DNA from: an uncultured Bradyrhizobium sp.
GTDB taxonomy: Bacteria > Pseudomonadota > Alphaproteobacteria > Rhizobiales > Xanthobacteraceae
Reading direction: 5' to 3'
Length of the DNA: 64,000 nt
Assembly: GCF_947648125.1 (NCBI RefSeq)
Contig: NZ_CANSMR010000004.1
Span: 1 to 64,000 of the forward strand
Positions 41,110 to 54,147 of this stretch are shown piece by piece (the first letter of the stretch is position 1; every line of letters starts with the position of its first letter). Made by a program: the position numbers and the translations under genes. The notes under the pieces are model-generated. The model was given only the letters and a program-made list of their open reading frames with translations. It did no database searches and was not told the origin of the DNA.

Positions 41110-41124
41110 TGGCACAGTTCTTGC
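41110..41124 (+). promoter_or_regulatory. Sigma-54 (RpoN) promoter of the urea operon
   Basis: TGGCACAGTTCTTGC matches the sigma-54 consensus TGGCAC(A/G)-N4-TTGC at every conserved position; the -24 GG (41111-41112) and -12 GC (41123-41124) have the required 10-base spacing. Transcription would start near 41135, about 60 bases before urtA. Urea uptake genes are commonly under NtrC/RpoN control, so this fits nitrogen-limited expression. I could not find a clear NtrC site upstream. Confidence 0.85.
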
Positions 41125-41196: not shown

Positions 41197-42525
41197 ATGC
41201 TTACTCAGCTTACTCACAAAATAACGACGATGACTCGCCGCCGCGCGCTCGCGGCGACGGCCGGCCTGGTTTTGGGTCTGGCTGCGTCCTCGCCGTTCGC
41301 GCCCGCCCAAGCGGCCGACGACACCATCAAGATTGGCATTCTTCACTCGCTGTCGGGCACCATGGCCATCAGCGAAACCACGCTGAAGGACACGATCCTT
41401 TTCCTGATCGACGAGCAGAACAAGAAGGGCGGCGTACTCGGCAAGAAGCTCGAGGCCGTCGTGGTCGACCCCGCATCGAACTGGCCGCTGTTCGCCGAAA
41501 AGGCCCGCGAGCTGATCACCAAGGACAAGGTTGCGGTCGTGTTCGGCTGCTGGACCTCGGTGTCGCGCAAGTCCGTGCTGCCGGTGTTCAAGGAGCTGAA
41601 CAACATCCTGTTCTATCCGGTGCAGTATGAAGGCGAGGAGTCCGAGCGCAACGTGTTCTACACGGGCGCGGCGCCGAACCAGCAGGCGATCCCCGCCGTC
41701 GACTATCTGATGAAGGAAGAGAAGGTGAAGCGCTGGGTGCTGGCCGGCACCGACTACGTTTATCCGCGCACCACCAACAAGATCCTCGAAGCCTATCTGA
41801 AGTCGAAGGGCGTCGCCCAGGACGACATCATGATCAACTACACGCCGTTCGGTCACTCCGACTGGCAGACGATCGTGGCCGACATCAAGAAGTTCGGCTC
41901 GGCCGGCAAGAAGACCGCCGTGGTCTCCACCATCAACGGCGACGCCAACGTTCCGTTCTACAAGGAGCTCGGCAACCAGGGCATCAAGGCGACCGACATT
42001 CCGGTGGTCGCGTTCTCGGTCGGCGAAGAAGAGCTCGCCGGCATCGACACCAAGCCGCTGCTCGGCCATCTCGCCGCCTGGAACTACTTCGAGTCGATCA
42101 AGACCCCGGCGAACGAGAAGTTCATCAAGGAGTGGCAGGCCTACACCAAGAATCCGAAGCGCGTGACCAACGATCCGATGGAAGCGCACTACATCGGCTT
42201 CAACATGTGGGTGAAGGCGGTCGAGAAGGTGAAGTCGACCGATCCGGACAAGGTGATCGACGCGCTTCCCGGCACCGAGGCGCCGAACCTGACCGGCGGC
42301 GTGTCGAAGATGCTGCCGAACCACCACATCACCAAGCCGGTGTTCATCGGCGAGATCAAGGGCAACGGCCAGTTCGACGTGGTCTGGAAGACCCCGGGCC
42401 TGGTGGCCGGCGACGCCTGGTCGAAGGAGCTCGAGGGCTCCAAGGACCTGATCGGCGATTGGGTCGGCAAGAAGTGCGGCAACTACAACACCAAGACCAA
42501 CAAGTGCGGCGGCCAGGGCTCGTAA
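41197..42525 (+). CDS. urtA: Urea ABC transporter substrate-binding protein UrtA
   Basis: A 442-residue periplasmic urea-binding protein. A basic signal region with TRRRALAATAG (Tat-like) ends near AQAAD. The mature part begins IKIGILHSLSGTMAISETTLKD, the UrtA/AmiC-type fold, followed by VVVDPASNWPLFAEKA, FGCWTSVSRKSVLPVF and FYPVQYEGEESE, which are diagnostic of UrtA rather than branched-chain amino acid binders. ATG 41197 has AGGGAGA nine bases upstream. First gene of the operon, behind a sigma-54 promoter. Confidence 0.96.
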   Translation: MLTQLTHKITTMTRRRALAATAGLVLGLAASSPFAPAQAADDTIKIGILHSLSGTMAISETTLKDTILFLIDEQNKKGGVLGKKLEAVVVDPASNWPLFAEKARELITKDKVAVVFGCWTSVSRKSVLPVFKELNNILFYPVQYEGEESERNVFYTGAAPNQQAIPAVDYLMKEEKVKRWVLAGTDYVYPRTTNKILEAYLKSKGVAQDDIMINYTPFGHSDWQTIVADIKKFGSAGKKTAVVSTINGDANVPFYKELGNQGIKATDIPVVAFSVGEEELAGIDTKPLLGHLAAWNYFESIKTPANEKFIKEWQAYTKNPKRVTNDPMEAHYIGFNMWVKAVEKVKSTDPDKVIDALPGTEAPNLTGGVSKMLPNHHITKPVFIGEIKGNGQFDVVWKTPGLVAGDAWSKELEGSKDLIGDWVGKKCGNYNTKTNKCGGQGS

Positions 42526-42571
42526 TCGGGCACTCCTGATCTAACGACACAACACAACCATCCAAGAACCT

Positions 42572-42602
42572 GGAGAAGGCGGCATTGCTCGCCGCCTTCT
42601 CC
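42572..42602 (+). promoter_or_regulatory. Stable hairpin between urtA and urtB
   Basis: GGAGAAGGCGGC (42572-42583) pairs perfectly over 12 bp with GCCGCCTTCTCC (42591-42602) around a 7-base loop. No T-run follows, so it is more likely an mRNA-stabilising or partial-termination hairpin that raises the level of the binding-protein message relative to the rest of the operon. Confidence 0.7.
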
Positions 42603-42626
42603 TCACACTCCTGCCGGGGTACTGAC

Positions 42627-44237
42627 GTGTTTGCTATTTGTATTGATCGCTTTCGCACTCTGTTTCTCTCGATCGTGCTGCTGAGCTGCCTTGCTGTGCC
42701 GGCGCTGGCCGGCCCGTTCGAGGATTCGGTCGCCAAATTCGCCAATGACGAGTTCTCCGACACCGAGGCTGCGATCGGCGAAGTTGCCGCATCGGGCAAT
42801 GCGCTGGCCTCGCCCATCATCGGCGCGCTGCAGGATGGCCGGTTGTCGGCCGATCCCGACAGCAAGAAGGTCTTCATCACGCAGGCCGACGGCAAGATCG
42901 TCGACGCCGCGACTGGTGCTGCCGTCGACAAGCTGCCCGACAACGCCGCTGCGGTTCGGCTCAACAACCGCCTGCGCCGCACCGTGGAGGCCGCGCTCGG
43001 CGGCCTGACGCTATTGTCGGCGGATCCGGCCAAGCGGCTCGCGGCGGCGCAATCGGTGTTCAAGAGCCACGAGGAGAACCTGCTGCCGACGGTGGAGGGT
43101 GCGCTCGCCAAGGAGAGCGTCAAATCGATCAAGCAGGCGTTCGCCGAGGCGCGCGCCGCCATCATCCTGTTCAAGCCGGATGCATCGGACAGCGACAAGC
43201 TCGACGCCGTCGCCGTGGTCAAGGCCCGCGGCGACCAGGAGGCGCTGGCGCTGCTCACCGGGCTGGGCGACCAGCCGCCGCTGGTCGCCCAGGCGGCGGC
43301 AACCGCGGTCTCATCGATCCAGAGCAATCTTGCGATGTGGTCGATGGTGCAGAACGCCTGGTACGGCCTGTCGCTCGGCTCGGTGCTGCTGCTCGCCGCG
43401 ATCGGGCTTGCCATCACCTTCGGCGTGATGGGCGTCATCAACATGGCGCATGGCGAGATGGTGATGCTCGGGGCGTACACCACTTTCGTGGTGCAGGAGG
43501 TGATCCGCACCCGCTATCCCGCGCTGTTCGACTATTCGCTGCTGATCGCGGTGCCGCTCGCCTTCCTGGTCGCCGGCTTCATCGGCGTCGTGATCGAGCG
43601 CACCATCATCCGCTTCCTCTACGGCCGTCCGCTGGAGACGCTGCTCGCGACCTGGGGCCTGTCGCTGGTGCTGCAGCAGGCGGTGCGCACCGCATTCGGC
43701 CCGACCAACCGCGAGGTCGGCAATCCGTCCTGGATGAGCGGCGCCTTCGAACTCGGCCAGATCACCATCACCTATAACCGGCTCTGGATCCTCTGCTTCA
43801 CGCTCGCGGTGTTCGCCATCCTGCTGGCGATGCTGCGCTACACCGCGCTCGGCCTCGAGATGCGCGCGGTGACGCAGAACCGCCGCATGGCGGCCTCGAT
43901 GGGGATCGCCACTTCGCGCGTCGACGCGCTGACCTTCGGCCTCGGCTCGGGGATCGCCGGCATTGCCGGCGTGGCATTGTCGCAGATCGACAATGTCAGC
44001 CCGAATCTCGGCCAGAGCTACATCATCGACTCATTCATGGTCGTCGTGTTCGGCGGCGTCGGCAATCTCTGGGGCACGCTGGTCGGCGCCTTCACGCTCG
44101 GCATCGCCAACAAGTTCCTGGAGCCGGTGGCGGGCGCGGTGCTCGGCAAGATCGCGATCCTGGTGCTGATCATCCTGTTCATCCAGAAGCGGCCGCGCGG
44201 CCTGTTCGCGCTCAAGGGTCGGGCGGTGGAAGCATGA
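42627..44237 (+). CDS. urtB: Urea ABC transporter permease UrtB
   Basis: A 536-residue LivH-type permease with the long N-terminal extension seen in UrtB. A signal-like helix (FRTLFLSIVLLSCLAVPALA) is followed by about 210 mostly helical soluble residues, then the membrane domain from about residue 245: GLSLGSVLLLAAIGLAITFGVMGVINMAHGEMVMLGAY, GRPLETLLATWGLSLVLQQ and DSFMVVVFGGVGNLWGTLVG. I chose GTG 42627, which begins the signal segment. A TTG at 42585 has a good ribosome site, but that site lies inside the 12-bp hairpin stem. Confidence 0.93.
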   Translation: MFAICIDRFRTLFLSIVLLSCLAVPALAGPFEDSVAKFANDEFSDTEAAIGEVAASGNALASPIIGALQDGRLSADPDSKKVFITQADGKIVDAATGAAVDKLPDNAAAVRLNNRLRRTVEAALGGLTLLSADPAKRLAAAQSVFKSHEENLLPTVEGALAKESVKSIKQAFAEARAAIILFKPDASDSDKLDAVAVVKARGDQEALALLTGLGDQPPLVAQAAATAVSSIQSNLAMWSMVQNAWYGLSLGSVLLLAAIGLAITFGVMGVINMAHGEMVMLGAYTTFVVQEVIRTRYPALFDYSLLIAVPLAFLVAGFIGVVIERTIIRFLYGRPLETLLATWGLSLVLQQAVRTAFGPTNREVGNPSWMSGAFELGQITITYNRLWILCFTLAVFAILLAMLRYTALGLEMRAVTQNRRMAASMGIATSRVDALTFGLGSGIAGIAGVALSQIDNVSPNLGQSYIIDSFMVVVFGGVGNLWGTLVGAFTLGIANKFLEPVAGAVLGKIAILVLIILFIQKRPRGLFALKGRAVEA

Positions 44238-44280
44238 CCTGCTTTGAGCCGCCAATGACTGCCCCGAAGTGCGCTGCGAC

Positions 44281-44413
44281 TCCCTCTCCCGCTTGCGGGG
44301 GAGGGTTGGGGTGGGGGTCTCTCCACACGGTACACTCCCGATGTGGAGAGACCCCCACCCGCCGCGCGCTGATGCGCGCGTCGGCCTCCCCCGCAAGCGG
44401 GAGAGGCAAGGGA
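44281..44413. repeat. Dispersed palindromic repeat between urtB and urtC
   Basis: Termini are inverted: TCCCTCTCCCGCTTGCGGG on the left and CCCGCAAGCGGGAGAGGCAAGGGA on the right (one internal bulge), with inner arms GTGGGGGTCTCTCCAC and GTGGAGAGACCCCCAC. It makes up most of the 184-base urtB-urtC gap. Its last bases overlap the urtC ribosome-binding site. Confidence 0.85.
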
Positions 44414-44421
44414 GTTCGCCA

Positions 44422-45591
44422 ATGACGCCGCATATCCTGACCCGTTCGCTCGACCGCGCCGCGACCGCGTTCGTCCTGCTCGTCGCCGCGGTCGGCGTGC
44501 TGATCCCGCTGTCGAACCTGCTGCTGCCGCAGGGCTCGATGTTCCAGGTGCCGACCTATCTGGTGGCGCTGTGGGGCAAATATGTCTGCTACGCCATCCT
44601 CGCGCTCTCGATCGATCTGATCTGGGGCTATTGCGGCATCCTTTCGCTCGGCCACGGCGCGTTCTTCGCACTCGGCGGCTACGCGATGGGCATGTACCTG
44701 ATGCGGCAGATCGGCAGCCGCGGCGTCTATGGCAACCCGATCCTGCCCGACTTCATGGTGTTCCTGAACTGGGACAAGCTGCCTTGGTACTGGTACGGCT
44801 TCGACAAGTTCGCCTTTGCCGCGTTGATGGTGCTGCTGGTGCCGGGGCTGCTCGCCTTCTGCTTCGGCTGGCTCGCATTCCGCTCGCGCGTCACCGGCGT
44901 CTATCTGTCGATCATCACGCAGGCGATGACCTATGCGCTGCTGCTGGCGTTCTTCCGCAATGATTTCGGCTTCGGCGGCAACAACGGCCTGACCGACTTC
45001 AAGGATATCCTCGGCTTCAACGTGCAGGCCGAAGGCACCCGTGCCGCGCTGTTCCTGCTGAGCTGCCTGGCGCTGATCATCGCTTTCCTGATCTGCCGCG
45101 CGATCGTGACCTCGAAGCTCGGTAAGGTCCTGATCGCGGTGCGCGATGCTGAAAGCCGCACCCGCTTCCTCGGCTATCGCGTCGAATCCTACAAGCTGTT
45201 CGTGTTCACGCTGTCGGCCTGCATGGCCGGTGTCGCCGGCGCGCTCTATGTGCCGCAGGTCGGCATCATCAATCCGAGCGAGTTCGCGCCGGGCAATTCG
45301 ATCGAGGCGGTGATCTGGGTCGCGGTCGGCGGTCGCGGCACCCTGATCGGCGCAGCGCTCGGCGCTGTCGTGGTCAATTACGCCAAGACGTTCTTCACGT
45401 CCGGACCGCTGGCGCCGTACTGGCTGTTCATGCTGGGCGCGCTGTTCATCCTGGTCACGCTGCTGTTGCCCAAGGGCATCGTCGGCACCTTCCACAGCTG
45501 GTGGGAGCCGATCAGGGCAAGGCGCAACTCTCCCGACGCGGAGAGTGCCGCGCGCGAAGACGGCGTCGGCGCACCGAACCTGGCGGAGTAG
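44422..45591 (+). CDS. urtC: Urea ABC transporter permease UrtC
   Basis: A 389-residue LivM-type permease, partner of UrtB. The signature IDLIWGYCGILSLGHGAFFALGGYAMGMYLMR identifies UrtC; later conserved parts are FRNDFGFGGNNGLTDFKDILG, RDAESRTRFLGYRVESYKLFVF and WVAVGGRGTLIGAALGA. ATG 44422 has AGGGAG seven bases upstream; the longer open frame reaching back to 44269 would translate the repeat and has no family support. Confidence 0.95.
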   Translation: MTPHILTRSLDRAATAFVLLVAAVGVLIPLSNLLLPQGSMFQVPTYLVALWGKYVCYAILALSIDLIWGYCGILSLGHGAFFALGGYAMGMYLMRQIGSRGVYGNPILPDFMVFLNWDKLPWYWYGFDKFAFAALMVLLVPGLLAFCFGWLAFRSRVTGVYLSIITQAMTYALLLAFFRNDFGFGGNNGLTDFKDILGFNVQAEGTRAALFLLSCLALIIAFLICRAIVTSKLGKVLIAVRDAESRTRFLGYRVESYKLFVFTLSACMAGVAGALYVPQVGIINPSEFAPGNSIEAVIWVAVGGRGTLIGAALGAVVVNYAKTFFTSGPLAPYWLFMLGALFILVTLLLPKGIVGTFHSWWEPIRARRNSPDAESAAREDGVGAPNLAE

Positions 45592-45595
45592 GCAG

Positions 45596-46357
45596 ATGAA
45601 CGTCATGGATACCCGCGCCACTTCGGCCATGCTCTATCTCGACGGCGTGCACGTCTCGTTCGACGGCTTCCACGCCATCAACAATCTGTCGCTGACGCTC
45701 GCGCCCGGCGAGATGCGCGCGATCATCGGCCCGAACGGCGCCGGCAAGACCACGATGATGGACATCATCACCGGCAAGACCAAACCGGACGAGGGCACCG
45801 TGCTGTTCGACGGCACCGTCGACCTGACCCGGCTGGACGAGACCCGCATCGCCGAGCTCGGCATCGGCCGCAAGTTCCAGAAGCCGACGGTGTTCGAGAG
45901 CCAGACCGTGCAGGACAACCTCTTGCTCGCGCTCAATGTCGATCACTCCGTGCGCGGCACGCTGTTCTGGCGCGGCAGCAAGGCGGAGTCCGAGCGCATC
46001 GACAAGGTGCTGGAGACCATCCGCCTGACCGATGCGCGCAACCGCCTCGCCGGCAGCCTGTCGCACGGCCAGAAGCAGTGGCTTGAGATCGGCATGCTGC
46101 TGGCGCAGGACCCCAAGGTGCTGCTGGTCGACGAGCCGGTTGCCGGCATGACCGATGTCGAGACCCATCTGACCGCGGAGCTTCTGAAAGAGATCAACAA
46201 AAACCACACCATCATGGTGGTCGAGCACGACATGACCTTCGTGCGCGAGCTCGGCGTCAAGGTGACCTGCCTGCATGAAGGCACGGTGCTCGCCGAAGGT
46301 TCGATCGACCAGGTGTCGTCGAACGAGCGGGTGGTCGAAGTGTATCTGGGGCGCTAG
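45596..46357 (+). CDS. urtD: Urea ABC transporter ATPase UrtD
   Basis: A 253-residue LivG-type ATPase. Walker A is GPNGAGKT, the signature is LSHGQKQW (with His in place of the usual Gly, as is normal for UrtD), Walker B is VLLVDEPVAGM, and the H-loop is VVEHDM. The FQKPTVFESQTVQDNL segment is typical of UrtD. A GGAG site seven bases upstream fixes ATG 45596. It pairs with UrtE to drive UrtB/UrtC. Confidence 0.96.
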   Translation: MNVMDTRATSAMLYLDGVHVSFDGFHAINNLSLTLAPGEMRAIIGPNGAGKTTMMDIITGKTKPDEGTVLFDGTVDLTRLDETRIAELGIGRKFQKPTVFESQTVQDNLLLALNVDHSVRGTLFWRGSKAESERIDKVLETIRLTDARNRLAGSLSHGQKQWLEIGMLLAQDPKVLLVDEPVAGMTDVETHLTAELLKEINKNHTIMVVEHDMTFVRELGVKVTCLHEGTVLAEGSIDQVSSNERVVEVYLGR

Positions 46358-46360
46358 GCG

Positions 46361-47056
46361 ATGCTGAAGATCGACAACATCAATCTCTATTACGGCGCGG
46401 CGCAGGCGCTGCGCGGCGTGTCGCTGACCGCCGAGCCGGGCAAGGTCACCTGCGTGCTCGGCCGCAACGGCGTCGGCAAGACCTCGCTGCTGCGCGCCAT
46501 GGTCGGCCAGTATCCGATCGCCTCCGGCGCGATCAATTTCGACGGCAAGGACATCACCGCGCTGAAGCCCTATGAGCGGGCGCGGCGCGGCATCGGCTTC
46601 GTGCCGCAAGGCCGCGAGATCTTCCCGTTGCTGACGGTGGAGGAAAACCTCAAGACCGGGTTCGGGCCGCTGAAGCGCGAGGACCGCAACATCCCCGATG
46701 ACGTGTTCTCGCTGTTTCCGGTGCTGCAGACCATGCTGGGCCGCCGCGGCGGCGATCTCTCCGGCGGCCAGCAGCAGCAGCTTGCGATCGGCCGCGCGCT
46801 GGTGATGCGGCCGAAGCTCCTGCTGCTCGACGAGCCCACCGAGGGCATCCAGCCCTCGATCATCAAGGACATTGGCCGCGCGATTTCCTATCTGCGCAAC
46901 CTCGGCAACATCGCAATCGTGCTGGTCGAACAATATCTCGACTTTGCCTGCGAACTCGGCGACAGTTTTGCCGTGATGGACCGGGGTGCGGTGAAATATG
47001 CCTGCGATCGCGCAAGCCTCGATCCCGCCGAGATCAGCCGCCAGATGGCGCTGTGA
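46361..47056 (+). CDS. urtE: Urea ABC transporter ATPase UrtE
   Basis: A 231-residue LivF-type ATPase. Walker A GRNGVGKT, signature LSGGQQQ, Walker B LLLLDEPTEGIQPSI and the H-loop glutamine/His region VLVEQYLDF. It starts three bases after urtD. Completes the five-gene urea importer; ureD follows after 51 bases. Confidence 0.96.
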   Translation: MLKIDNINLYYGAAQALRGVSLTAEPGKVTCVLGRNGVGKTSLLRAMVGQYPIASGAINFDGKDITALKPYERARRGIGFVPQGREIFPLLTVEENLKTGFGPLKREDRNIPDDVFSLFPVLQTMLGRRGGDLSGGQQQQLAIGRALVMRPKLLLLDEPTEGIQPSIIKDIGRAISYLRNLGNIAIVLVEQYLDFACELGDSFAVMDRGAVKYACDRASLDPAEISRQMAL

Positions 47057-47107
47057 ACAAGCTGTGACGCCGCCTCGCGCGGCGTGGGTCAAGGGAGCGT
47101 CGGGGGA

Positions 47108-48040
<933 letters not shown>

Positions 48041-48067
48041 TCCTCTAAACGCTTTCAGAGTGTTCGC

Positions 48068-48370
48068 ATGAATTTGTCTCCCCGCGAAAAGGACAAGCTC
48101 CTGGTTTCGATGGCCGCCATGGTGGCGCGCCGCCGGCTCGAGCGTGGCGTCAAGCTGAACCATCCCGAAGCCGTGGCACTGATCACCGATTACATCGTCG
48201 AGGGCGCGCGCGACGGCCGCACCGTCGCCGAATTGATGCAGGCGGGCGCCAAGGTCCTGACCCGCGCGCAAGTGATGGATGGCATCCCGGAGATGATCCA
48301 CGACATCCAGGTCGAGGCGACATTCCCCGACGGCACCAAGCTTGTCACCGTGCACGAGCCGATCCGATAG
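48068..48370 (+). CDS. ureA: Urease gamma subunit
   Basis: A 100-residue UreA, the small structural subunit of urease. It begins [27 protein letters not shown] and contains [21 protein letters not shown] and [21 protein letters not shown], all family hallmarks; length is standard. Separate from ureB (not fused as in some bacteria). Confidence 0.97.
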
Positions 48371-48379
48371 GAGCCTGAC

Positions 48380-48685
48380 ATGATCCCCGGCGAACTCTTC
48401 ATCAAGGACGGCGAGATCGAACTCAATGCAGGCCGCAAGACCGTGACGCTGTCGGTTGCCAACAGCGGCGACCGCCCGATCCAGGTCGGGTCGCACTACC
48501 ACTTCTTCGAGACCAACCCGGCGCTGAAATTCGACCGCAAGAAAGCCCGCGGCATGCGCCTCGACATCGCCGCCGGCACCGCCGTCCGCTTCGAACCCGG
48601 CCAGACCCGCGACGTCCAGCTCGTCGCGCTCGCCGGCAAGCGCGTAATCTACGGCTTCCGCGCCGAGGTGAAAGGGAAGCTCTAG
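48380..48685 (+). CDS. ureB: Urease beta subunit
   Basis: A 101-residue Ure[40 protein letters not shown] and [30 protein letters not shown] sits six bases before the ATG. It assembles with UreA and UreC into the urease trimer. Nine bases after ureA; the HD-hydrolase gene follows after five. Confidence 0.97.
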
Positions 48686-48690
48686 GCCCG

Positions 48691-49245
48691 ATGCTGCCCG
48701 CGCTCCGCATGGTCTCCGAAGCTGCCGAGCTTGCGGCGCGCCGTCACAACGGCATGGCGCGCAAGGGGCGGGGGAACGAGCCTTACATCAACCATCTCGC
48801 CGAGGTTGCGAACCTGCTGGCGCAGGTGACTGACGGTGCCGATGCTGAGCTGGTGGCGGCCGGTTGGCTGCACGACACTATCGAAGACACCGAAACCACG
48901 CGCGAGGAGCTCGCGCAAAGATTCAGCGAACGCGTTGCCGCGCTGGTGGTCGAATGCACCGACGACATGAGCCTGTCCAAGGCCGTGCGCCGGCAAAAGC
49001 AGGTCGAGGACGCTCCGCACAAATCGCCCGGTGCAAAGCTGATCAAGACCGCCGACAAGATCAGCAATATCGGCGCCCGCATAGTGCCGCATCCAGGCAA
49101 GGACGAACGCGACGATCTCGCCGATTATGCGACCTGGGCCGACAAGGTCGTTGCCGGTTGCCGGGGGATCAATCCGCGGCTCGACCGCATTTTCGATGAC
49201 ACCATCGCGCGCGCCAAGGCCGCGCTGGCTGAAACTGGGGGCTGA
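48691..49245 (+). CDS. MESH1-like HD hydrolase, putative (p)ppGpp hydrolase, inside the urease operon
   Basis: A 184-residue single-domain HD hydrolase. It resembles the SpoT hydrolase domain and its stand-alone relative MESH1: [10 protein letters not shown] (His35), WLHDTIEDT (His61, Asp62, Glu65, Asp66), [23 protein letters not shown] (Asp122, Asn126). These are the manganese and catalytic positions known for MESH1, at the same residue numbers. No synthetase, TGS or ACT domain is attached, so it should remove the pyrophosphate of (p)ppGpp; MESH1 also acts on NADPH. It sits 5 bases after ureB and 1 base before ureC, so it is made with urease. The role in urea use is inference. Confidence 0.85.
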
Positions 49246-49246
49246 T

Positions 49247-50962
<1,716 letters not shown>

Positions 50963-51011
50963 AACCGGTCCCGGTATCCAAAGCCAGAACAGAAAACCGG
51001 GAGGAATTTCC

Positions 51012-51311
51012 GTGATTTACGTCGTAGCCACGCTGACCATCAAGCCCGAGACCCGCGCCGAATTCATCGCGGCGGCGACGGCCTGCATCAAGGAAACCCG
51101 CAAGGAGCCCGGCAACATCGCCTACGATTTGCATGAGAGCGTCACCGACCACAGCAAGATGGTGTTCGTCGAGCAGTGGGAGAACGCCGAGGCACTGGTG
51201 CCGCATCGCACCGCCGAGCACATGAAGACGTTCGGCCGCGTCGCCGTGAAGTGCATGGCCGCGCCGCCGAAGATCGAGGTGATCACGCCCGAGAAGGTCG
51301 ACGTTCGCTAA
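51012..51311 (+). CDS. ABM-domain putative quinol monooxygenase, copy 1
   Basis: A 99-residue dimeric alpha-beta barrel (ABM) protein: IYVVATLTIKPETRAEFIAAATACIKETRKEPGNIAYDLHES. Such small cofactor-free oxygenases (YgiN type) oxidise quinols or aromatic compounds; here the substrate is unknown. GTG 51012 is preceded by GGAGG seven bases upstream. It lies between ureC and ureE and is paired with a second copy. No link to urease chemistry is known to me. Confidence 0.85.
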   Translation: MIYVVATLTIKPETRAEFIAAATACIKETRKEPGNIAYDLHESVTDHSKMVFVEQWENAEALVPHRTAEHMKTFGRVAVKCMAAPPKIEVITPEKVDVR

Positions 51312-51335
51312 CAAGAACAAGAACGGGAGAAACAC

Positions 51336-51635
51336 ATGATCTATGTCATCGCCACCACGCCGATGAAGCCGGAGAACAAGGACGACTTCATTCGGGGACA
51401 CCAGGCGTGCATCGCCGAGACCCACAAGGAGAAAGGCTGCCTCTCATACGAGGGTCATGTCAGCGTCAATGATCCCAATCTGTACGTGGTGGTCGAGCGC
51501 TGGGAAACCCGCGACGACCTGACCGCGCACAGCAAGGCGCCGCACATGAAGGTGTGGCGCGAATATTCCGCCGAGATGAAGACGGGCCCGACGGTGATCG
51601 AGATCATCAGCGACGCCAAGGTCCAGAAGCTCTGA
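51336..51635 (+). CDS. ABM-domain putative quinol monooxygenase, copy 2
   Basis: A second 99-residue ABM protein ([42 protein letters not shown]), clearly related to the preceding gene but diverged along its length. The typical [21 protein letters not shown] segment is present. It begins 24 bases after copy 1 and ends 8 bases before ureE, so both belong to the urease transcript. The pair may form a heterodimer (inference). Confidence 0.85.
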
Positions 51636-51643
51636 GGCAATCG

Positions 51644-52276
51644 ATGATCCGCGCAACCAAAGTCCTGGGACAGCATCGCTGGAAGGAAGCGGCAGCCGAC
51701 ACCGTCGTGCTCGATTTCGACGACCGGCACCGGCGGCGGATGGCGATGACCGGGACGCGCGGGCTCGAATTCCTGCTTGATCTCGAAAACGCCGTCGCGC
51801 TGCGCGGCGGCGATGCACTGGTCTTGGAGGACGGCCGCCTCATCGAGGTGGTCGCTGCTCCAGAGCCGCTCGCGGAAATCCGCGGCAGCGATCCGCATCA
51901 TCTGATCCGGGTCGCCTGGCATCTCGGCAATCGCCATCTGCCGACGCAGATCATGCCGAAAGGCCTGCGCATTCGCAGGGATCACGTGATCGAGGCGATG
52001 GTGAAGGGGCTGGGGGCCCGTGTCATCGAGATCGAAGCGCCGTTCGATCCCGAGGGCGGCGCCTATGCCGAGCATGCGCATGCCGACGAGCACGCGCATG
52101 CTCACACCGGGCACGATCATGCCCATGGCGAAGCGCACGATCACGGTCACGACCATGGTGATGGTCACCATCACCATCACGATCATGCGCATGACCACGA
52201 CCACCATCATCATGATGAGCATTGCGACCATGCCCATCATCACCACGACCACTCCCATGCTCATGACCGCAAATGA
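51644..52276 (+). CDS. ureE: Urease nickel chaperone UreE with long His tail
   Basis: A 210-residue UreE. The N-terminal peptide-binding domain (about 1-70) and the metal-binding domain ([34 protein letters not shown]-like) are standard. The C-terminal 67 residues (144-210) contain 33 histidines interspersed with Asp/Ala/Gly, a nickel-storing tail much longer than the His-rich end of Klebsiella UreE. GAGG six bases upstream supports ATG 51644. The last 14 bases overlap the ureF start. Confidence 0.95.
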
Positions 52277-52994
52277 GCCTGATCCCGCTGCGGTGCGCGG
52301 CGGGATGGCGGAGGACGAGGCGGCCGCGCTGTATCGGTTGATGACGTGGCTGTCGCCGTCCTTTCCGGTGGGGGCGTTCGCCTATTCCAGCGGCATCGAA
52401 TGGGCGGTCGAGGCCGGCGACATCACCGATGCCGCGTCGCTGCGCGGCTGGCTCGCGGCGATGCTCACCGACGGCAGCGGCTTTTGCGATGCCGTGTTTC
52501 TCGCGCAGAGCCATCGCGCGGCGTCGGAACCCGGCCACGCCGGACTGAAGGAGATCGCCGAGCTTGCTGCTGCCTTTGTGCCGTCGCGCGAGCGGCAGCT
52601 GGAGACCACGACGCAGGGGCGCGCCTTCATCGAGATCGCCCGCGCGGCCTGGAATTCGTCCGGCCTCGATGCGATGATTGCGGCCTGCGACGGCCCGATC
52701 GTCTACCCGGTCGCGGTCGGCGTCGCCAGCGCTGCGCATCGCATCCGGCTTTCGCCGTCGCTGCATGCCTTCCTGCATGCCGTGCTCTCGAACTGGATTT
52801 CCGCGGGCAGCCGGCTGATCCCGCTCGGGCAGACCGACAGCCAGCGCGTGCTGGCCGATCTCGAGCCGGTCGTTGCGGCGACTGCGGCGCGGGCCAATGC
52901 AGCTTCGCTCGACGATCTCGGCAGCGCGACCTTCCGGGCCGACCTCGCAAGCCTGCGCCACGAAGCGCAATACACGAGGCTGTTTCGGTCATGA
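52263..52994 (+). CDS. ureF: Urease accessory protein UreF
   Basis: A 243-residue all-helical UreF, which bridges UreG to the UreD-apo-urease complex. Motifs: [39 protein letters not shown]-like [14 protein letters not shown], and [12 protein letters not shown] chose ATG 52263, whose codons overlap the end of the ureE His tail in another frame; a later in-frame ATG ([11 protein letters not shown]) at 52305 could also serve. Confidence 0.93.
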
Positions 52995-53012
52995 TGGGCC
53001 ACACCATCCACG

Positions 53013-53139
53013 CGTCGTCCCCGCGAAAGCGGGGACCCATAACCTCCGGCTTTGGTGGTTGCGCGAGGCTGGGGCCCCAGACGGTTGCAGCAACTGAACT
53101 CGGTGGTTATGGGTCCCTGCTTGCGCAGGGACGACGATA
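53013..53139. repeat. Dispersed palindromic repeat, family A (copy 2), between ureF and ureG
   Basis: CGTCGTCCCCGCGAAAGCG at the left is mirrored by TGCGCAGGGACGACG at the right; the interior has the same CGGTGGTTATGGGTCC and GAGGCTGGGGCC segments as the copy at 3774-3900. It separates ureF from ureG by 162 bases. Its hairpin could lower ureG expression. Confidence 0.85.
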
Positions 53140-53156
53140 GCGGAGGCACTCTTCTC

Positions 53157-53804
53157 ATGCCCACTTCTCATGGCCCGTTGCGCGTCGGCGTCGGCGGTCC
53201 GGTCGGCTCCGGCAAGACCGCGCTGATGGATCTGCTCTGCAAGTCGATGCGCGAGCGTTACGACATCGCGGCGATCACCAACGACATCTACACCAAATGG
53301 GACGCCGAGTTTCTGGTGCGCTCCGGCTCGCTGACGCCGGACCGCATTGCCGGCGTCGAGACCGGCGGCTGTCCGCACACCGCGATCCGCGAGGACGCAT
53401 CGATGAACCTTGCCGCGGTCGCCGACATGCGGGCGAAATTCCCCGATCTCGACCTGGTGCTGATCGAGTCCGGCGGCGACAATCTGGCGGCGACCTTCTC
53501 GCCGGAATTGGCTGATCTCACGATTTACGTCATCGACGTCGCCGCCGGCGACAAGATCCCTTCCAAGGGCGGTCCCGGCATCACGCGATCCGACCTTCTG
53601 GTGATCAACAAGATCGACCTCGCGCCCCATGTCGGTGCGTCGCTTGAGAAGATGGACACCGACGCCAGGCGGATGCGCGGCGAGCGGCCCTTCGTGATGA
53701 CCAATCTGAAGAAGAGCGACGGCCTCGACCGCATCATCAGCTTCATCGAGACCAAGGGCGGCCTTCGGTCGCAGGGCGCAGGCAAGGCGGCCAAGACGGG
53801 TTAG
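53157..53804 (+). CDS. ureG: Urease accessory GTPase UreG
   Basis: A 215-residue SIMIBI-class GTPase that delivers nickel to urease on GTP hydrolysis. P-loop [11 protein letters not shown], the conserved metal-binding motif [12 protein letters not shown] (Cys-Pro-His), the [15 protein letters not shown] switch, and the [11 protein letters not shown] guanine-specificity motif are all intact. GGAGG ten bases upstream supports ATG 53157. Last gene of the operon. Confidence 0.97.
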
Positions 53805-53832
53805 GCGTTAATCATTGTGGCAGTGGCCAGTC

Positions 53833-53877
53833 CCGTCACCCCCGCGCAAAGGCGAAGCCTTTGCGCGGGGGTGACGG
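53833..53877 (+). terminator. Long hairpin after ureG, likely end of the urea operon
   Basis: A perfect 21-bp stem (half-site CCGTCACCCCCGCGCAAAGG plus one base) around a GAA loop, 28 bases past the ureG stop. No T-run follows, so it may be a repeat-type hairpin that blocks 3' exonucleases rather than a classic terminator. Confidence 0.75.
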
Positions 53878-54147
53878 TGAACGGGAGGGGTGCGTACTCC
53901 GCCGCAAAAAAGCTGCGCAATCGCCGGAACAATTGCCAACTTTGACGATTAGCAACCTTTGGCGCCGCCAAAGACCGCCGGGTGGCGTCGTCGTTAATGT
54001 TGCCGACCGGCTCCTGTTGCGTACCGATGATCGCTATTCCATATTCCTTTGCGGCTGGCGTTCATCGCACCCTGATTTGTCGCCGCCCCCGCAGAAGCCA
54101 GATGCCTACCGTCCCCTTTCGCCACCCCCTGATTGCCGAGTAAGCGT
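53878..54147. other. Intergenic region before the sensor kinase
   Basis: About 270 bases, no gene seen. GGAACAATTGCCAACTTTGACG near 53926 loosely recalls an EcfG promoter, but its spacer is too short. Presumably contains the kinase promoter. Confidence 0.35.

Follow-up and report, generated by a model that had tools for sequence, protein, structure and literature searches.

The window analysed here is a 64,000-nucleotide stretch of DNA from an uncultured Bradyrhizobium sp., a genus to which root-nodule symbionts of agricultural importance belong. It carries a cluster for the uptake and splitting of urea with the order urtABCDE-ureDAB-sah-ureC-ABM-ABM-ureEFG (names by NCBIfam and Pfam), in which sah denotes the gene of a predicted small alarmone hydrolase (SAH) placed between two urease structural genes:

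41110..41124, plus strand: sigma-54 type -24/-12 promoter-like site TGGCACAGTTCTTGC, upstream of urtA (ATG 41197); consensus match, conserved in relatives
41197..47056, plus strand: urtABCDE, urea ABC transporter genes; NCBIfam TIGR03407, 03409, 03408, 03411 and 03410, each above cut-off
47084..48040, plus strand: ureD, urease accessory protein; PF01774, E 7.5e-54
48068..48370, plus strand: ureA, urease gamma subunit; PF00547, E 6.1e-48
48380..48685, plus strand: ureB, urease beta subunit; PF00699, E 3.9e-48
48691..49245, plus strand: sah, predicted urease-linked SAH (HD protein, MESH1-type), 184 aa; reading frame, Pfam HD_4, PDB and Foldseek matches to MESH1
49078..49080, plus strand: codon of a new R130, one codon ahead of the 131-146 segment
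49081..49128, plus strand: loop and helix start, residues 131-146, with W138 and R142 lost and D/E142; comparison of rows, helix from the model
49247..50962, plus strand: ureC, urease alpha subunit; PF00449 and PF01979
51012..51635, plus strand: two ABM-domain genes (51012-51311 and 51336-51635); PF03992
51554..53804, plus strand: ureE, ureF and ureG (bounds of the listed reading frames, starts may differ); PF02814/PF05194, PF01730, and PF02492 with TIGR00101

The sah reading frame comprises 184 codons, with an ATG start and a TGA stop. Five bases separate the ureB stop (last base 48685) from its start, and one base lies between its end and the ureC ATG (49247). The initial annotation had described a 184-residue HD protein at exactly these distances from ureB and ureC, and the reading frame and the Pfam match bear this out to the base. 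Further downstream, two ABM-domain genes stand in tandem between ureC and ureE (51012-51635), and most other Bradyrhizobium loci show one match only.

Pfam recognizes HD_4 and HD as the only domains of the 184-residue protein, with no synthetase domain; HD_4 is matched at E 2.3e-16 (60.4 bits against a cut-off of 27.2). Two NCBIfam RelA/SpoT models give partial matches far under their cut-offs, as expected for a protein of the hydrolase-only type. In a phmmer search of the PDB, human MESH1 is the best match (E 3e-33) and Drosophila Mesh1 reaches 1e-25, both ahead of any long RSH. An AlphaFold2 model built on 54 sequences (pLDDT 95.7, pTM 0.92) has the all-helical MESH1 fold, and in Foldseek human MESH1 chains come out on top (TM 0.85-0.89). 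The likeness to MESH1/Mesh1 (3nr1, 5vxa, 3nqw) covers the single-domain HD architecture, approximately the same length and fold, and the same metal and catalytic residues. Specifically, R24, K25, K97 and Y146 align (residue numbers are those of the window protein throughout), and human MESH1 is 38% identical over the fold alignment. The model also shares its fold with the P. aeruginosa SAH (6yvc) and C. glutamicum RelH (7qod). The hydrolase domain of long Rsh/Rel/SpoT proteins is a homologous HD domain, that of the genome's own Rsh being 37-38% identical over about 115 residues, whereas sah lacks the synthetase domain and is a separate gene in a urea operon.

The six metal and catalytic residues named in the initial annotation, His35, His61, Asp62, Glu65, Asp122 and Asn126, all occur at those positions, and the 15-letter block that it regarded as common to MESH1 aligns with the human protein, with LIK here against LVK there. 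Conservation was counted over 133 rows, 88 urease-linked and 45 not, the latter including the HD domain of the own-genome Rsh. Identical proteins were dropped beforehand, as were L108 (G025) and L109 (G106), unlinked SAH-like Bradyrhizobium ORFs that are short (144 and 142 aa, below 150 aa) and perhaps decayed. H35, H61, D62, E65 and D122 are invariant in 88 of 88 linked and 45 of 45 unlinked rows, N126 is kept in 87 of the 88 linked rows, and R24 and K25, whose equivalents are reported to line the adenine site in MESH1 (PMC12934728), are present in all 88. By family, predicted fold and catalytic residues, the product of 48691-49245 is a small alarmone hydrolase.

The position of the gene among the urease structural genes is conserved. 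A scan of genome contigs covered the best 80 of 575 relatives, and 60 of these best 80 sit at urease genes. The 59 closest loci among them (57 labelled Bradyrhizobium and two MAGs labelled Alphaproteobacteria only) include 57 with ureB upstream and ureC downstream, one (L060) with ureB only and one (L022, B. cajani 1010) with ureC only. In L022 the operon is rearranged, the 8 kb ahead of sah and ureC giving no match to urtE, ureD, ureA or ureB. A Xanthobacteraceae MAG (L063), likewise within the best 80 of 575, has its SAH between ureA and ureB. For the remaining 20 of the best 80 (44-52% identity; Pseudomonadota, Acidobacteriota and Chloroflexota), the urease proteins of the window find no match in the DNA examined.

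A genus sample of 117 Bradyrhizobium genomes includes 113 with this urease, and an SAH lies at the urease in 79 of the 113, with both flanks on one contig in 75 and split by contig ends in 4. The urea uptake and splitting operon thus includes a gene of the starvation-nucleotide-hydrolase type in most sampled Bradyrhizobium, and the ureB-ureC placement noted at the outset for the window alone holds across the genus and in some relatives. Median dN/dS of the SAH is 0.175 over 60 Bradyrhizobium-type loci, against 0.060 for ureA, 0.087 for ureB and 0.056 for ureC. This value and the conserved synteny argue that neither the reading frame nor its placement is due to chance. The other 34 of the 113 genomes show no SAH there, ureB and ureC being on separate contigs in two, and the regions of 20 of these 34 contain no SAH remnant at E 1e-5; the SAH is therefore dispensable.

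This patchy occurrence bears on one alternative, namely that the SAH is a passenger, an intact gene at a permissive site within the operon with a task of its own unrelated to urea, for example the removal of (p)ppApp that rivals deliver. Besides the 34 genomes that do without the gene, the ureB-ureC gap houses DUF559-type, patatin-type and unknown ORFs in many loci (one representative each of the DUF559 and patatin types was named by Pfam). In three loci (L031, L038 and L042) the SAH is 74-77% identical to that of the window while urtE, ureA, ureB and ureC are 95-99% identical, so that replacement of the SAH independently of the surrounding genes is possible; the gene is also kept in two genomes, described below, in which no ureC is detected. 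However, SAHs turn up in this operon repeatedly, at two different positions and in members of two families, the SAH match ends at most 70 bases from ureC in 71 of 75 loci, linked rows cluster on the tree, and no SAH match of the genus sample lies near the secondary ureases listed (alpha subunits 73, 58, 56 and 48% identical). Such a passenger role is rated improbable.

The ureB-to-SAH gap varies from 6 to 1180 bases across the 75 loci. The space between ureB and sah or ureC appears as an insertion hotspot (e.g., L006, L025, L047 and L085; patatin-like genes in L027, L039, L063, L087 and L091). One genome, G109 (L104, 2780-4210), has two different SAHs in one operon, in the order ureA-SAH-ureB-SAH-ureC, the first being 47% identical to the window protein.

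Beyond the genus, the survey covered the family, the order and the class. At the level of the family, an SAH is found in 47 of 248 genomes and a close ureC in 194 of 248. Thirty family loci were examined, the window included: 26 have the SAH between urease structural genes, 2 beside ureE only and 2 elsewhere. The arrangement ureB-sah-ureC is found in genera g28 and g18, and ureA-sah-ureB in g11, g30 and g38; within g28, 10 of 13 sampled genomes with ureC have an SAH match and 3 do not. Of 19 family matches beyond these thirty loci, two (G207 and G159) were also examined and show no urease in 12 kb. SAHs occur in 39 of 347 genomes of the order, where the loci examined outside the genus number 20, with 9 more matches beyond them; two of the 20 (L140 and L159, both family f42) have ureB-sah-ureC and the other 18 show no urease gene within about 1.5 kb. 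In the class, 15 of 337 genomes carry an SAH, and all 14 new loci lack urease genes within about 1.5 kb. The initial annotation had held that unrelated loci in most relatives would speak against a link to urease, and the outcome is mixed: the genus is predominantly linked (79 of 113), while the order (18 of 20 unlinked), the class (14 of 14) and two ureC-less genomes that keep the gene point the other way.

The first tree was built from the 133 rows with the variable loop excluded. All 88 linked rows fall in a group of 91 with an SH-aLRT of 83, the other three being long-branch unlinked rows (L143, L147 and L158), for which unlinked means no urease gene within about 1.5 kb (2.2 kb for L147; for L143 a 12 kb region, L169, was also examined). 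A second tree comprised 75 rows, 33 drawn from the 88 linked ones (including 20 of the 70 from Bradyrhizobium ureB-ureC loci) and 42 from the 45 unlinked ones. Its urease group has a bootstrap of 89 and an SH-aLRT of 80, and the Bradyrhizobium ureB-ureC rows form a firm clade (99/99). An AU test leaves the linked rows as one clade unrejected (p 0.223), which is no proof of one clade.

Two genomes of genus g28, both estimated to be 100% complete, keep the SAH without a detectable urease. The SAH is INDEPENDENCE from urease in G202 (L161, 4194-7477) and G301 (L162), which have no ureC match at E 1e-5; an empty result of this kind says little by itself, although the same query found ureC in 13 other g28 genomes. 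In both, the SAH is intact and lies with a ureE-like gene immediately behind a DEAD-box helicase gene. This helicase shares 71% identity with the one upstream of urtA in the window, and the region looks like a urt-ure operon collapsed around the SAH. Between the two SAHs, dN is 0.018 and dS 0.190, giving a dN/dS of 0.094 for this single pair. An intact gene in genomes without detectable ureC indicates that the SAH is not merely a part of urease. Its function is thus probably independent of urease, in keeping with a small molecule as substrate. For this reason, a factor for urease assembly or activity that has lost its action on nucleotides, as the place between ureB and ureC and the remodelled surface segment might suggest, is rated very improbable. 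The metal and catalytic site is, moreover, kept in all linked rows apart from one N126, and many genomes carry this urease with no SAH.

The remodelled segment lies beside the active site. In the AlphaFold2 model a helix spans residues 137-155, and it is around the start of this helix that the Bradyrhizobium clade differs. Unlinked SAHs in the comparison keep a W...R..Y segment, unlike the Bradyrhizobium clade: W138 is present in 44 of 45 unlinked rows (the exception is the own-genome Rsh domain) and R142 in 41 of 45, and both are kept in all 18 linked rows outside that clade. Human MESH1 likewise has Trp and Arg where it aligns with 138 and 142 (via the relative L126). R142 is thus kept in 59 of the 63 rows outside the Bradyrhizobium ureB-ureC clade and absent from all 70 within it, where residue 142 is Asp (61 rows) or Glu (9) and W138 is gone from every row. 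All 70 of these rows also carry Arg at position 130, which none of the 63 others does. The window protein itself has D138, D142 and R130. Compared with MESH1, it is therefore a bacterial protein inside a urease operon with Asp138 and Asp142 for Trp and Arg and a new Arg130. The proposal of a MESH1-type hydrolase stands for the fold and the catalytic site; it does not extend to a MESH1 pocket in the narrow sense, since the Trp/Arg pair on the Y146 helix is lost from the Bradyrhizobium clade and from the window protein.

Residues 138, 142 and 146 are one helical turn apart and adjoin the nearly invariant Y146, and by this spacing the 138/142/146 face probably touches the substrate. The fixation of both an acidic residue at 142 and the new Arg130 speaks against simple decay, even though evolution is faster in the loop than in the core (0.267 versus 0.124). 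Because the Trp/Arg pair is replaced, MESH1-like specificity for ppGpp or NADPH cannot be assumed, and the Bradyrhizobium SAH may differ from MESH1 in substrate preference.

Known members of the family already differ in this respect. The alphaproteobacterial SAHMex is reported to hydrolyse (p)ppApp and hardly (p)ppGpp (PMC7644958), and XccSAH is described as promiscuous, acting on (p)ppGpp and (p)ppApp and weakly on NADPH (PMC9765508). The main rival to an alarmone substrate is an active enzyme that acts on some other nucleotide carrying a 2'- or 3'-phosphate (such as NADPH, CoA or PAPS), which would tune cofactor or sulfur pools, and not the stringent response, during assimilation of the ammonia released from urea. 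Reported activities of MESH1 include dephosphorylation of NADPH (PMC9965611) and of CoA (PMC13221220), a MESH1 structure has been solved with PAPS (9chy), and Bradyrhizobium has a rebuilt helix next to the active site. On the other hand, SAHMex is reported not to hydrolyse NADPH, with Mesh1 and MESH1 only slow in the same study (PMC7644958), and the NADPH activity of XccSAH is given as about 40 times weaker than that of Mesh1 (PMC9765508). Loss of R142 would, if anything, weaken the binding of a phosphate-rich ligand. Such a substrate is regarded as rather unlikely.

The operon also contains a candidate promoter. The sequence TGGCACAGTTCTTGC at 41110-41124 fits the sigma-54 consensus, and the same site with at most one mismatch is present in all 42 relatives whose upstream DNA was available (16 perfect, 26 with one mismatch; 14 further relatives are outside this count), starting 73-95 bases ahead of urtA. 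As background, that score is reached by 19 of 840 randomly drawn 300-base stretches of these loci, some of which may include the site itself. One of the 42 relatives (L173) has the site before a urease operon with no SAH, so the site is a feature of the operon and not of the SAH. A scan for NtrC-like palindromes gave four matches, no more than chance and none near urtA. In 46300-54000, no sigma-70 promoter was found, and of eight terminator-like sites one lies on the plus strand (47626, inside ureD) and is taken as chance. The spacing and order of the genes suggest that the SAH and urease are made from one transcript. A conserved sigma-54-type promoter makes nitrogen control plausible, which lends substance to the nitrogen side of the growth control specific to nitrogen proposed in the initial annotation, and NtrC is probably the activator of the operon.

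The preferred reading is that an active, metal-dependent and nitrogen-induced SAH of the urease-linked clade would lower (p)ppGpp or (p)ppApp during urea use and let growth resume, a proposal whose chances are about evenly balanced. When nitrogen is short, Rsh would raise (p)ppGpp, and one sigma-54 promoter, probably activated by NtrC, would direct synthesis of the SAH together with the urea transporter and urease. As urea is imported and split, the co-made hydrolase would strip the 3'-(pyro)phosphate from the alarmone, (p)ppGpp or (p)ppApp, and its removal would allow growth on urea nitrogen. For this scheme we infer the catalytic activity, co-transcription, NtrC control, substrate and physiology. 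In Caulobacter, glutamine deprivation is reported to raise (p)ppGpp through PTS-Ntr acting on SpoT (PMC4848567), a route that gives a nitrogen signal to damp. The window's genome has one long Rsh; if the Bradyrhizobium Rsh acts as in Caulobacter, a separate hydrolase would bypass that block during urea scavenging. In X. campestris, a sah mutant is described as accumulating more (pp)pGpp and NADPH on starvation (PMC9765508). A more specific version, put forward tentatively as one possibility, is that the fixed change of R142 to Asp/Glu and the new Arg130 gave the urease-operon hydrolase a new substrate preference, through which urea use, under sigma-54 control, would switch off a particular alarmone or drain a nucleotide cofactor.

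SAHs of the Mesh1 groups in alphaproteobacteria are already known (Atkinson 2011, PMC3153485), the available part of that main text mentioning neither Bradyrhizobium nor urease. None of the bacterial SAHs compared (6yvc, 7qod, XccSAH and SAHMex) is described beside urease in the portions of their sources available. Within the terms and the collection searched, no publication was found on a link between urease and an alarmone hydrolase or ppGpp, on the urease-linked SAH clade or on its rebuilt segment. The SAH family is thus known, and for the urease-linked, remodelled variant no publication was found in the literature searched. The roles of bacterial SAHs beyond that of antitoxin are described as poorly characterised (PMC9765508), and with an SAH embedded in an operon for urea scavenging, a defined condition is at hand, namely urea as the source of nitrogen, together with a candidate promoter. 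Genomes with and without the SAH, one two-copy genome and SAH-keepers without detectable urease provide natural comparisons, and exit from the alarmone state of nitrogen starvation would become directly testable through the urease-linked SAH. In Bradyrhizobium with sah in the operon, urea use may be tied directly to a growth-control signal; if this is true, the remodelled SAH would be a case in which an operon itself carries growth control by a single nitrogen source.

A role as the antitoxin of a toxic alarmone synthetase was considered and rejected, the three RelA_SpoT-domain matches of the genome (the long Rsh and two others) lying on other contigs. In having no synthetase gene beside it, sah resembles XccSAH, which is described as an orphan hydrolase that lacks a toxic synthetase (PMC9765508). 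As for the two further RelA_SpoT-domain genes, L189 (G000 C50) and L190 (G000 C13), one matches the defence candidate family PDC-S33 and one lies beside a GmrSD-type gene.
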